This document shows, one piece after another, positions 45,935 to 51,328 of a DNA stretch of 64,000 nt. Every line of letters starts with the position of its first letter. Position 1 is the first letter of the stretch. This DNA is from a bacterium (Candidatus Blackallbacteria) CG13_big_fil_rev_8_21_14_2_50_49_14 (GTDB lineage Bacteria; Cyanobacteriota; Sericytochromatia; UBA7694). The notes beneath the pieces are model-generated. The model ran no database searches. It was not told where the DNA came from and saw only the letters and a program-made list of their open reading frames with translations. A program made the translations under genes and the position numbers. Location: NCBI GenBank assembly GCA_002783405.1, contig PFGG01000035.1, positions 1 through 64,000 on the forward strand. Reading direction: 5' to 3'.

Positions 45935-47914
45935 TCAGTTTGTCTGCACTTCATAGAGTGGGCTGAGGCTGGTATTGCCCTGATAATCCTGGGCCTGAAA
46001 GAAATAGGCTTTGCTGGCGTTGATTTGAGCAAAATCCCAAACCGGCGTCTGGCCAAAGCGGAGCTGGCTGCCCTTTTTCCAGACCAACACCTGGGCCTGG
46101 GTATCATAGACCTGATAAAAAAACTGCAGGCTGTCACCCGCCGCGATATTGAGCTGAGTCCGAGACAAAATAACACGGCCGTCCTGACTGACGGAATAGG
46201 GAATGGCCCATTGACTCACCACCCGGTTATTCGCATCCATCTCCAAATAAAACACGACTTTTTCATCGTTCAGCAAAGCCTCTGAAGAATAAATGCGGTG
46301 ACCCTGAGTGGTCAAAGCTTCAAAATAAGCTGGCGGAAAAAGACTTAAACCTGTCTGACAATTGCCATCGCAGAGCAACAACCATTCGCCATTCCAAACA
46401 GGTGCAAAATACTGACTGTTCTGCTCAAGCGGATGCAAAACCTCACTGCCAATCAGAAAGAGATAACGGCTGTCCGCTTTGAGGGCAAAGACCTGTTCCG
46501 CTTCACGAATGCCCAGATTGTCCTGAATTTTAAGACAATGCCCCTGACGCCCCTGATACGAACAGAGTTTTGCTGCGTTTTGCTGCAGGCTGAAATTTTC
46601 AGTTGAAATCACGGGTTTTTCCTGATCATGGCTGCCTGTGCTGACAAAGGTTCCGGCAAAATTCAGCCAGGGCTCAGAGACGGCCTGCTCCAGACCATAC
46701 TGGGGTTTCATATTTTTGTTCAGCGAATAAATCGAAACGCCATTGGCATTGGGTTTGGAATCATCGTGGCGGGCATAGACCACCAGAGACTGAAGCCGGC
46801 TCAGGGCCTGTTCTGCAGCAACAGAAGCCTCAGGCTGCTTCTGTTTCAGGTTTTGCAACCAGTCTTTGAGATCAATCGAATAGGAGATATCGCTTTGAGG
46901 TTCTTTGCCAAAATGCTGGCTGTTTTCAACCGCCTGTAAAAGCGGTTCGAACTTCTGAAAGTTGATCTGAGCCGTTAAACCCGTCAAGGCAGCAATCAGG
47001 GGGCTGACCTGTTCTAAATCCAAAAGGGAAAGCGTTTTGTATTTGTTTTTAGAGCGGTTATGCTGGGGAGTATCCAGATAGGAGTCCACCAGTTTTTTAC
47101 CCAAGGCAGCCATATCCAGATGCGCGTTTTGAGCAAATAGAGTGAGCACATCGGTATAGTACCAGCCATGCCCAGGCTCCAATTCTTCAGAAGCCAGCAT
47201 ATAACGGGCATAGGGATAAATAACACGGGCCACTTCAAGACTGGCCATCAGACAGGCATCAAAAGCCATCAGGTCAAAATGCACCCCAGAAGCAGAGAAA
47301 GCCGATTTCATCTCGGTCAGGGTAATGAAATCATCGCTGCTGGGCGCTGTACTGTCTTGGCCCACGCCCAGATAAGAGAGCCCGTGATCCCAAAAAATCA
47401 GGGCTTTGCGTTCAGCCTGGCTGAGCGAAGGTTTGAGAAATTTCAGAAAGGCAGCCAGGCTCTCGCTGCTGGACATATTGTTATTCTCAATCTGCTGCTG
47501 GTAACAGTGATCATTGCCAAAATACTGATCCTGGCTGTCTTGCACCAAGCAGGCCATATCGGCGTATTTGGTGCCTTTCCAACCCGCTTTGCGCGCTCCC
47601 CCAAAAGCAACATGAATATCCAGCGCCTCTTTTTGAACCGAAGAAAGGGTCTGGTAAGCAGCAACCATCTCCTTGAGATCGTCCGTACCTGCGCCCTTCA
47701 GGCTGGGGCCCTCCATTTCCTGTTCATCGGGAATACCATTGCGCGGTTTGGCGTCATCTTCCAGATTGCCGCCCACCATATAAACCGCGATCAATGTCTT
47801 GGGCAAAGGAGCAGAAACAGACTCCGAAAGCGCGTTGACAGACTCCGCCGCATGGCAGGAAGTCAGAAACAGCACCCCAATTAAAAACCTAAAAATGACT
47901 GGACAATACTTCAT
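45935..47914 (-). CDS. Clostripain-like (C11) peptidase, lipoprotein
   Basis: A 659-residue lipoprotein with lipobox LTSC (Cys20) and a C11 caspase-like peptidase domain (about 38-420). The catalytic dyad is visible: His177 in FWDHGLS and Cys221 in FDACLMA, both in the family context. Family members cleave after basic residues and are often self-activated. The C-terminal 230 residues are beta-rich with no recognised domain. The start at 47914 was chosen over 47998 because it begins the lipoprotein signal and because a TGTTATAAT extended -10 sits seven bases upstream, implying a leaderless mRNA. It diverges from a Pro-rich lipoprotein gene with which it shares a promoter region. Confidence 0.85.
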   Translation of the reverse strand: MKYCPVIFRFLIGVLFLTSCHAAESVNALSESVSAPLPKTLIAVYMVGGNLEDDAKPRNGIPDEQEMEGPSLKGAGTDDLKEMVAAYQTLSSVQKEALDIHVAFGGARKAGWKGTKYADMACLVQDSQDQYFGNDHCYQQQIENNNMSSSESLAAFLKFLKPSLSQAERKALIFWDHGLSYLGVGQDSTAPSSDDFITLTEMKSAFSASGVHFDLMAFDACLMASLEVARVIYPYARYMLASEELEPGHGWYYTDVLTLFAQNAHLDMAALGKKLVDSYLDTPQHNRSKNKYKTLSLLDLEQVSPLIAALTGLTAQINFQKFEPLLQAVENSQHFGKEPQSDISYSIDLKDWLQNLKQKQPEASVAAEQALSRLQSLVVYARHDDSKPNANGVSIYSLNKNMKPQYGLEQAVSEPWLNFAGTFVSTGSHDQEKPVISTENFSLQQNAAKLCSYQGRQGHCLKIQDNLGIREAEQVFALKADSRYLFLIGSEVLHPLEQNSQYFAPVWNGEWLLLCDGNCQTGLSLFPPAYFEALTTQGHRIYSSEALLNDEKVVFYLEMDANNRVVSQWAIPYSVSQDGRVILSRTQLNIAAGDSLQFFYQVYDTQAQVLVWKKGSQLRFGQTPVWDFAQINASKAYFFQAQDYQGNTSLSPLYEVQTN

Positions 47915-47921
47915 TCTTTGT

Positions 47922-47927
47922 ATTATA
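47922..47927 (-). promoter_or_regulatory. Extended -10 TGTTATAAT, leaderless clostripain gene
   Basis: TATAAT on the minus strand (47927-47922) is preceded by TGT and followed after 7 bases by the ATG at 47914. The plus-strand TATTAT at 47921-47926 overlaps it and may serve the divergent gene at 47962. Confidence 0.55.
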
Positions 47928-47961
47928 ACAAGGGTTAATCTTGGGATCAGGAATAATTTGA

Positions 47962-49455
47962 ATGAAGCTGAATCAATTGCGAAGTCTCTCACTGACATGC
48001 TCGCTTACCTTGAGCATGATCGGTTGTTCACCCGGTACGCCCCCCTCAGCCAGCAGTCAAAGCCCAGCCCCCACAGCTTCAAGTCAGGCCAGCCAAGCAG
48101 AAGAAAACAACTTCAAACGAACAGCCGTCGCCATTACTGCCACCCATCAGGCCAGCGCGAACGGCGTGGACAGCCTCTCAGAATACCGTTTGCCCAAAGG
48201 GGTCAACCTGGATCAGGTCAAAATCGTCAAAGCCAATCTCGATGGCCGGGAGATCGACGCCTCAGAAATAACGCTGGGGAGCGACGCAGATAAAAACCTC
48301 AATTTCTTTATCAGCCAAACTGTTTTTGATCAAACATTTACAGGCAGCAGTGTCACAGAATCCCCCAGTATTCACAGCTCAGAAACCTTTAAGCAAAAGA
48401 AACAGGAATTGCGCACAGAATTACTTGAAAAATACCAAGATCAAGTCAAAGAAAATATTGAAGAACAAATTCCCACCCCTGAATTTTTGGCGGTACAGGT
48501 AAGGGGCGAAAGCCTCAGCCGCCAAAAGGTCGCAGAATTGAAAAAAGACAGCGCCAAACTGACCAAAGAAGGGGTTTTTCTCGATCGCAGTTTTTATGTG
48601 ATTCTCGAGGTTGAGAATCAGCAGTTTAAGGTCGCTCAAACCACCAGCCAACAATGGGTCACCAAACTGGGCATTTCGGGAGAACAGGTCAAAAAACTGG
48701 CTACCGCCATCCGTGAAAAAAGCAGTGCCGATGAAGTGTTGCGCCTGCCCGCCATTGCCGAAAAAGTGGCAGCTCAGGACAAGCAGTTTTTCAGTACCGT
48801 TGCCAATCTGGATGAAGCCAATCAGGTGATTGAAATCGAAGAAATCGAAGAGGATCTCGAAACCGAACTGGGAGCTGAACTGGCTCCCAAAGGCGTGCCT
48901 TTTTACGAGTTCGAATTGCCCCTGGATTTACGCGATCTGCACCGGCTGGAGCAAGCCAAACCAGCTTTGGCCAAACCGGCCCTGGCAGATGCCCAAGACG
49001 ACAGCCAAGAAGATTTACAGACCCGTTTAAAACGTGCAGCTCAACAAGCCCAACTGCTTGAGCAGGATTTTCAACGCATTGGCCGCAAACCGATTCCCGA
49101 TCAGCGCCTGTTTGACCCCCGACGCCGTCCCCCGGATCGCTTTGCGCAACAGCCTCTGGGCCTGCCGCCGGATCACTTCCAGATTCTGCCCCAGCATCTG
49201 CCCCCACCCCGACCGGGAGAAGGCCCCCCAGCAGGAGCCCTCACCAGCAGCAGTTCTCCGCCGCCTGGCGCACCCCTGCCAGGAAATAGCTCCATGCCCC
49301 CCCCTGAAGGAACTGTGCTCCCCCGCCCTGACAGTACACCACCGCCCACCCCGGGTTCAAGTTTACCTCCGCCACCGGATAGCTCCCTACCGCCGCCGGG
49401 AAGCGGCCCCCTGCCTCCACCTCCAGGGAATAGCCCGCTGCCTCCACCTCCCTGA
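47962..49455 (+). CDS. Lipoprotein with Pro-rich C-terminal tail
   Basis: A 497-residue lipoprotein (lipobox MIGC, Cys22) with an Ala/Ser/Gln linker, a charged helical middle (about 130-290) that includes a Glu-rich stretch, and a C-terminal 100 residues dominated by repeats of the type SSLPPPP and GPLPPPP. The tail ends directly in prolines. I do not recognise a family. Pro-rich tails of this kind cross or bind peptidoglycan in other envelope proteins; that is an inference here. AGGA at 47949-47952 precedes the ATG. It diverges from the clostripain-like gene and is followed by cmoB, which has its own promoter. Confidence 0.65.
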   Translation: MKLNQLRSLSLTCSLTLSMIGCSPGTPPSASSQSPAPTASSQASQAEENNFKRTAVAITATHQASANGVDSLSEYRLPKGVNLDQVKIVKANLDGREIDASEITLGSDADKNLNFFISQTVFDQTFTGSSVTESPSIHSSETFKQKKQELRTELLEKYQDQVKENIEEQIPTPEFLAVQVRGESLSRQKVAELKKDSAKLTKEGVFLDRSFYVILEVENQQFKVAQTTSQQWVTKLGISGEQVKKLATAIREKSSADEVLRLPAIAEKVAAQDKQFFSTVANLDEANQVIEIEEIEEDLETELGAELAPKGVPFYEFELPLDLRDLHRLEQAKPALAKPALADAQDDSQEDLQTRLKRAAQQAQLLEQDFQRIGRKPIPDQRLFDPRRRPPDRFAQQPLGLPPDHFQILPQHLPPPRPGEGPPAGALTSSSSPPPGAPLPGNSSMPPPEGTVLPRPDSTPPPTPGSSLPPPPDSSLPPPGSGPLPPPPGNSPLPPPP

Positions 49456-50503: not shown

Positions 50504-50528
50504 TGCTAAAAAGTGTAAGATTTTAGCA
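50504..50528. promoter_or_regulatory. 8-bp inverted repeat upstream of Cys-rich peptide gene
   Basis: TGCTAAAA (50504-50511) and TTTTAGCA (50521-50528) are exact reverse complements with a 9-base spacer, between cmoB and the Cys-rich gene. A direct repeat ATCTGCT overlaps both ends, and CGTC at 50536-50539 is a word often found in ECF -10 elements. It may be a cmoB transcript end or an operator. Confidence 0.4.
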
Positions 50529-50592
50529 TCTGCTGCGTCTTAAGAATACACAGAACAAGTTTCTGAAATTCTAAACCCAAGGAGATTGACCC

Positions 50593-50724
50593 ATGTCAGA
50601 GGATTGCTGTAAGGATTGCCAATGTGGAGCCCCTGCTCTTGATGGCGGGTGCTGCTGTGGCAGCGAATGCAAATGTGGATCCACTTGCACCTGCCCACCG
50701 GAATGCAATTGCCCAGGTGCTTAG
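50593..50724 (+). CDS. Cys-rich metallothionein-like peptide
   Basis: A 43-residue peptide with 13 cysteines (positions 5, 6, 9, 11, 20, 21, 22, 26, 28, 32, 34, 38, 40), arranged as CxC and CCC clusters with almost no hydrophobic residues: the composition of a metallothionein. It would bind several soft metal ions such as Cu(I), Zn or Cd in the cytoplasm. It has a textbook AAGGAG at 50579-50584, eight bases before the ATG, so translation is well supported despite its size. Its stop is three bases before the ATG of an ECF sigma factor that itself carries metal-type cysteine motifs, which makes a shared metal-response role likely. I cannot assign it to a named metallothionein family. Confidence 0.8.
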   Translation: MSEDCCKDCQCGAPALDGGCCCGSECKCGSTCTCPPECNCPGA

Positions 50725-50727
50725 ACC

Positions 50728-51258
50728 ATGAAAACGGGAGAGTCTGAACTGAAAGAGGCTTTGGTAGCCCTCAGCCCGGAGATGTTGAGCTGGGTACTTC
50801 AGCGCACAGGCTCTCCCGATTTGGCTGAAGAAGTCGTTCAGGAAGCCCTGATCAAAGGCCTTGAGAAATTATCCCGACTTGAAAATCCCCGGCATTTAAA
50901 AGCTTGGTTTCGCACCATTGTACGCAATACCCTGATCGATGAACTGCGCTACCAACAACGCCAAGAGCCGCTGGAAAACCTGGCAGCTCCCGAAACACCT
51001 GAATTACCTGATGAGGAAGAAGGCTGCGCCTGTATCCTGGAGATCATGAAACAGGTGCGCCCAGGTTATGCCCAGTTGCTTCAGGCCGTAGATATTGACG
51101 AAAAACCGGTTCAGACCGTCGCTCGCGAACAGGGGTTGAGCCCCAACAATGCATCGGTACGTTTACACCGGGCCCGCCAGGCCTTGCGCCGTCAATTGGC
51201 CCAAACCTGTGGAACCGATTCCCTGCAAGCCTGCCTCAATTGCAGTTGCCCGGCCTAA
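50728..51258 (+). CDS. ECF sigma factor with Cys-rich metal-sensing motifs (CorE-like)
   Basis: A 176-residue ECF sigma factor. Sigma region 2 lies at about 12-80 (DLAEEVVQEALIKGLEKL) and region 4 at about 102-158 (SPNNASVRLHRARQALR). All six cysteines are in two places: CxC (100, 102) in the linker between the regions and C-x7-C-x2-C-x-C (161, 169, 172, 174) at the C-terminus. This is the arrangement of CorE-type (ECF44) sigma factors, which sense copper or cadmium directly and need no anti-sigma factor; none is present here. Compared with the usual CGTC...CLDCTC tail, the second cysteine is Asp164. It follows the metallothionein-like gene by 3 bases and ends at a terminator. Confidence 0.88.
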   Translation: MKTGESELKEALVALSPEMLSWVLQRTGSPDLAEEVVQEALIKGLEKLSRLENPRHLKAWFRTIVRNTLIDELRYQQRQEPLENLAAPETPELPDEEEGCACILEIMKQVRPGYAQLLQAVDIDEKPVQTVAREQGLSPNNASVRLHRARQALRRQLAQTCGTDSLQACLNCSCPA

Positions 51259-51301: not shown

Positions 51302-51328
51302 AAAAGCCCTGCTTCTGGCAGGGCTTTT
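51302..51328. terminator. Bidirectional rho-independent terminator
   Basis: An 11-bp perfect stem (AAAAGCCCTGC / GCAGGGCTTTT) with a 5-base loop lies between the sigma factor gene and the convergent EF-hand gene, with A and T runs serving both directions. Confidence 0.9.

Follow-up and report, generated by a model that had tools for sequence, protein, structure and literature searches.

The window, that is, the whole stretch of 64,000 nucleotides that was analysed, belongs to a 5.65 Mb assembly of a member of the Sericytochromatia, which are non-photosynthetic relatives of the cyanobacteria. On its forward strand, a small gene at 50593-50724 encodes a metallothionein-like peptide of 43 amino acids, MSEDCCKDCQCGAPALDGGCCCGSECKCGSTCTCPPECNCPGA, with 13 Cys (30% of the residues) found in several CxC motifs plus CC and CCC, and without any His or aromatic residue. 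Metallothioneins are, as a class, small, with about 20-30% Cys, CxC motifs and no aromatic residues, and the 43-aa product fits these criteria in size, Cys share, motifs and lack of aromatics. The gene has a ribosome binding site, AAGGAG, at 50579-50584 (forward strand), 8 nt upstream of the ATG, and its stop codon TAG is separated only by ACC, a 3-nt gap, from the ATG at 50728 of an ECF sigma factor gene. A previous sequence-only reading of this DNA had described exactly this, a gene of 43 residues and 13 Cys (30%) with a ribosome binding site and ending 3 nt before the sigma gene, and each point was found to hold. The window has 1189 frames of 30 aa or more, and the runner-up Cys-rich stretch of 40 aa among them contains 8 Cys. 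When the peptide was compared with Pfam and NCBIfam no family exceeded its cut-off, as was also the case for the peptides of six relatives; the top metallothionein model was PF02067 (Metallothio_5), at 10.4 bits against a cut-off of 25 (E 0.75).

The sigma factor (50728-51258, forward strand, 176 aa) matched Sigma70_r2 (48.6 bits) and Sigma70_r4_2 (30.4 bits) of Pfam, both above cut-off, and its structure model is of ECF type, with SigL as the best PDB match; the local confidence of the model was good (pLDDT 87), the global one low (pTM 0.49). It contains exactly six Cys: C100 and C102 in the linker, which reads C100-A-C102, and C161, C169, C172 and C174 in a C-terminal tail with the pattern C-x7-C-x2-C-x-C. 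Residue 164 is Asp, at the position of Cys184 of CorE. Both the six Cys in CorE-type positions and the tail short of one usual Cys had been proposed from the sequence alone, and are borne out. The assignment to the CorE type (ECF44) stands only in part. The original ECF44 definition comprises an architecture of sigma2 and sigma4 only, which the window sigma has, a CxC in the linker, which it also has (among 18 aligned sigmas C100 is invariant and C102 is found in at least 90%, the relative L014 being without the second linker Cys), and equivalents of Cys181, Cys184, Cys192 and Cys194, which none of the 21 founding CRD sigmas lacks (PMC3107203). This last requirement is not met: C161, C172 and C174 are there, and Asp164 replaces C184. 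The linker, the tail and the lack of a linked anti-sigma gene are thus of the CorE kind, while the formal definition does not apply. An identity with SigZ was considered and rejected, the score against NCBIfam TIGR02959 being 71.7 bits for a cut-off of 168.65.

No anti-sigma gene is linked to the module, the flanking genes encoding CmoB and an EF-hand protein. The EF-hand gene is convergent with the sigma gene, and the interval that separates them contains a hairpin, AAAAGCCCTG...CAGGGCTTTT, at 51302-51328 (fold z -1.9), which was not detected by a strict terminator scan and is likely a two-way terminator ending the two-gene operon. Further upstream, and unlinked to the module, the window encodes a long protein ending in Pro-rich repeats (47962-49455) and a 687-aa protein (45935-47998), which, judged by eye only, may be a clostripain-like peptidase.

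Conservation of the peptide-sigma pair

A protein search of 59 relatives showed that each of the other four family members has the sigma factor, with an identity of 43-51% across the aligned part, and the peptide lies directly upstream of it in 5/5 family genomes searched, which represent four genera. Absence of the small frame from relatives had been named beforehand as a result that would refute the proposed sensor and sink; the frame passed this test. In the alignment of the five peptides 21 columns are invariant, including all 13 Cys, while the Cys codons (TGT/TGC) vary in the third base, which indicates that selection acts on the protein; together with the 8 Cys of the next-best stretch in the window, this argues that the Cys richness did not arise by chance. 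At position 164 the five sigmas carry D, H, E, T and H, and never Cys. The remaining sigma matches in the phylum were ordinary ECF factors without a Cys tail, and a search of 292 genomes from the phylum yielded only one more true peptide, a second copy in G004 (L183/L267, G004:C224), which has 14 Cys, no sigma gene and no promoter motif.

On a broader scale, 84,980 species genomes were scanned with the Cys framework and two Gly codons, the latter added after the framework alone had been overwhelmed by simple repeats. Besides such repeats, the scan returned at least about 25 true peptides with the core CCCGxxCxCGxxCxC-x3-CxC, which in the window peptide forms part of the conserved framework C-x-C...CCCGxxCxCGxxCxC-x3-CxC. 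Among the matches listed, the hosts were Myxococcota, one gammaproteobacterium, Acidimicrobiia, Candidatus Binatia and Sericytochromatia, and most peptides were immediately followed by a sigma whose linker has the CxC and which carries a Cys tail, the exceptions to this layout being L226, L244, L259, L300 and L183/L267; at L308, at a contig end, peptide and sigma are head-to-head. The length and Cys number of the peptide differ between loci, and several sigma-linked peptides have no common motif beyond their Cys richness. An independent peptide-profile search of 379 Myxococcota genomes gave 17 carriers; in those that were not seeds, a sigma gene was downstream in 10/11, once at a distance of about 650 nt. 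A tblastn search of plasmids with a Myxococcota peptide gave no match. On the sequence evidence, a minimum of four further bacterial phyla have the peptide-sigma unit with the type of promoter described below.

Several loci deserve separate mention. One gammaproteobacterial MAG (G293:C207 and G293:C165) holds three separate copies of the module. A gene for a MerC-domain protein at L260:24-545 (minus strand) and a peptide-sigma operon are transcribed divergently, and similar-looking upstream DNA is present at L370. The contig L218 is assigned to a Euryarchaeota MAG but hardly differs from the Acidimicrobiaceae loci L263, L296 and L301; misbinning is the probable cause. Metallothionein-like stretches also occur in other contexts: in Christensenella MAGs (L265:5756-6403; L314:988-1656) an apparent GrpE carries one of the form CCCGxxCxCGxxCxC... 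as an N-terminal fusion, and the frame that follows directly is DnaK-like, and in a Methanomethylophilaceae archaeon MAG (L225:3463-5055) a long frame with hydrophobic stretches ends in the C-terminal tail CCCGDECQCGDGCDCEGECQCG.

The distance of 3 nt between the two genes of the window makes coupled translation plausible, and the small frame could merely be translated as a leader, or serve to couple translation to that of the sigma gene, or be a functionless hitch-hiker. We give this almost no credence: the 13 Cys do not vary where their codons do, the framework is kept across phyla, and stand-alone copies of the peptide exist, so that conservation has already largely refuted it.

The putative promoter

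A proposed autoregulatory ECF promoter was recognised from a motif common to the regions upstream of the peptide genes. In the window, it consists of a -35 element TGTAAG at 50514-50519 and a -10 element CGTC at 50536-50539, both on the forward strand, with a 16-nt spacer, the -10 element being 53 nt upstream of the start codon of the peptide. The pattern TGTAA[G/T/A]-N15..17-CGTC was found upstream of the peptide gene in 23/32 non-redundant loci (0.02 in shuffles), and the looser GTAA[GTA]-N-[CT]GTC in 27/32 (0.2 in shuffles); the motif was absent or degenerate at the other 5. In short, the shared motif reads TGTAA[G/T]-N16/17-CGTC. By contrast, no promoter of the TGTAA type was found in 52 upstream regions of control ECF genes, and CorE-type sigmas without the peptide had the motif in 1/16. 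In CRD loci on alphaproteobacterial plasmids the motif reads TGTAAC-N16-CGTC, compared with TGTAA[G/T] in the peptide-linked group. A search between 50400 and 51450 found no sigma70-type promoter.

The sequence-only reading had suggested that an inverted repeat and the CGTC word at 50536 could belong to an autoregulatory promoter. As judged by comparison of the loci, the CGTC is the -10 element of an ECF-type promoter conserved across them, its use by the window sigma being inferred. The repeat, TGCTAAAA...TTTTAGCA at 50504-50528, fared differently: it extends over the -35 element, and the four family relatives have not preserved it, and therefore it is probably incidental; as an operator it was rejected.

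The motif is not confined to complete modules. Three peptide copies without a sigma gene (L300, L226 and L244) carry a promoter of the TGTAA type, and in the genome of L300 a separate sigma gene without peptide, L356, is preceded by it too, so that the two genes are connected although they are not neighbours. In the genome of the window, a search with a stricter pattern gave 3 sites, one being that of the module itself and another falling inside a long frame on the opposite strand. In G001, a genome of the same genus, a further site is located 44 nt upstream of a CDF-like cation transporter gene (TIGR01297, E 6e-7, below the cut-off of the model), which adjoins a ZitB-like CDF gene and a MerR regulator; that transporter is missing from the window's own genome.

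These neighbours bear on the stimulus. Modules in which all ligands are Cys could respond to oxidants, and a possible thiol modification was raised by the authors of the CorE study (PMC3107203); hence the sigma could sense thiol or oxidative stress, with its tail as a redox switch and the peptide as a sacrificial thiol or a zinc-release buffer. Such a role appears unlikely to us, since the spacing of the tail equals that of the metal-responsive CorE, the spacing of the peptide, with CxC and CCC, is metallothionein-like, the additional site stands before a CDF-like cation transporter gene with metal genes next to it, and at one module the divergent neighbour encodes a MerC domain. For a response to metals, ions of the Cd/Zn type are somewhat more likely than Cu because the CDF-like transporter carries the promoter site; against this preference, an all-Cys, His-free peptide would suit Cu(I) too, and the identity of the metal is undetermined.

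Sigma factors lacking the inactivation cysteine

In CorE, Cys189, Cys192 and Cys194 are needed for activation and Cys184 for inactivation, and the C184A mutant is constitutive without copper and still rises with copper (PMC3107203). The window sigma retains all three equivalents of the activation Cys (C169, C172 and C174). In order to avoid the selection bias of the framework scan, in which genomes are picked by their peptide, a sample based on the sigma was assembled from 189 Myxococcota genomes, 399 from the phylum of the gammaproteobacterial locus, 148 from the class of the Acidimicrobiales locus and 148 from the phylum of the Binatia locus, with the addition of a plasmid-borne CorE-type sigma (L321) and the exclusion of genomes first found via the peptide. 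A search for a Cys-rich frame upstream of CorE-like sigmas had been proposed along with the original reading; it found one at 8/9 sigmas without C184 and at 2/18 with a CorE-type tail (Fisher p 1.7e-4; 3e-3 after collapsing close relatives). Both CorE-type exceptions read CxxCHC and not CxxCTC. A 7-Cys frame upstream of L347, which looked like a shadow frame, was left uncounted. Three genomes (G326, G336 and G346) have one sigma of each type, and the peptide is found only at the one without C184. The lack of C184 is the rule among metallothionein-linked sigmas and no quirk of the window sigma.

The counts are not independent. In a tree of the sigma domains, built without the tail, the CorE-type and the C184-less tails form separate lineages, so tail type and peptide were inherited together; as a test by independent contrasts, of C184 absence versus peptide presence, rested on a single independent pair, the association is a lineage pattern and not independent evidence. 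Among about 53 other ECF loci, a Cys-rich upstream ORF was present only at L397 (G335:C15), where the sigma is SigZ-like, its Cys tail is of another kind and the Cys-rich ORF is unrelated to the peptide, possibly a convergent pair of sensor and sink.

This association, strong but not total, together with the 3-nt gap and the co-inheritance, would also be expected if the peptide were not a bulk sink and had the sigma as its target, either bringing metal to it as a chaperone or serving as a small anti-sigma partner. We regard this as very unlikely. The promoter-bearing copies without a sigma gene are what would be expected of a regulon product, and the variable length and Cys number of the peptides, several of which are alike only in their Cys richness, favour a sink over a docking partner.

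A proposed metal-response operon and its relation to known systems

Taken together, we consider it probable that the two genes are a self-regulated metal-response operon, in which a metal-activated sigma, its own promoter and a metallothionein sink that ends the response are combined. Gene order, conservation, Cys frameworks, the common promoter and the absence of a linked anti-sigma gene are evident in the DNA; metal activation via the Cys tail is inferred by analogy with CorE, and the promoter as target of its own sigma, metal binding by the peptide and its action as an off-switch are also inferences. Excess of a thiol-seeking metal would bind the linker CxC and the C-terminal Cys of the sigma, which would then direct RNA polymerase to TGTAA[G/T]-N16/17-CGTC. 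Of the two products, the metallothionein, as sink, would come first and be the main one, and further sigma would come second, as positive feedback, until the accumulating metallothionein withdraws the metal from the sigma and the response ends. A two-gene sensor and sink with an autoregulatory promoter, as first read from the sequence, thus gains support from conservation, pairing across phyla and a common ECF-type promoter, while there is no experimental evidence for metal binding by the peptide, for induction or for use of the promoter by the window sigma. More tentatively, and with doubts that for us outweigh the arguments in favour, a class of CorE-like sigmas without C184 may have handed its off-switch to a co-transcribed metallothionein of a new family, giving a self-limiting metal pulse in at least five phyla.

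The module looks like a widespread, previously undescribed metal-response device, in which metal binding is inferred. Few sequence families of bacterial metallothioneins are known, and the cases that we met in the literature are controlled by repressors; the present one would add a family that neither Pfam nor NCBIfam contains, which most annotation would miss on account of its small size and Cys richness, and which is tied to an activating sigma through a recognisable promoter. Moreover, the switch-off of CorE-type sigmas becomes testable, since natural sigmas without the inactivation Cys are mostly accompanied by a metal sink, and a two-gene module with a single promoter is simple to study in a laboratory strain. 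We found no report of an operon of an ECF sigma and a metallothionein in the open literature, subscription papers not being covered. What is new is the joining of CorE-like signalling to a metallothionein family without a model in Pfam or NCBIfam, the metal binding of the peptide remaining an inference.

SigZ is among the nearest named sigma models of NCBIfam, and some SigZ-like sigmas also end in Cys, but the window sigma is far below the family cut-off and its tail is different. In the cyanobacterial smtA/smtB system a metallothionein gene stands beside that of an ArsR-type metal repressor, with the same logic of sink plus sensor. The likeness lies in a metallothionein gene adjoining a metal sensor; in the window module, however, the sensor is an activating sigma in one operon with the peptide, and the peptide is below all Pfam metallothionein cut-offs. 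Control of a cyanobacterial metallothionein by SmtB/ArsR is also described elsewhere (PMC8790569). MymT of Mycobacterium tuberculosis is likewise a small Cys-rich metallothionein under a metal sensor, RicR, but the latter is a CsoR-type repressor (PMC10141476), and both sensor class and gene layout are unlike those of the window module. The closest systems are CorE and CorE2 of Myxococcus xanthus (formerly ECF44, now in part ECF238), of which the first responds to Cu and the second to Cd and Zn, as decided by the tail (PMC8999054). The window sigma shares with them the linker CxC, the Cys-rich tail and the absence of a linked anti-sigma, and matches CorE at the equivalents of C181, C189, C192 and C194, but not of C184; it differs in being preceded by a metallothionein-like gene and a promoter of its own, whereas most of the CorE-type tails sampled have neither.
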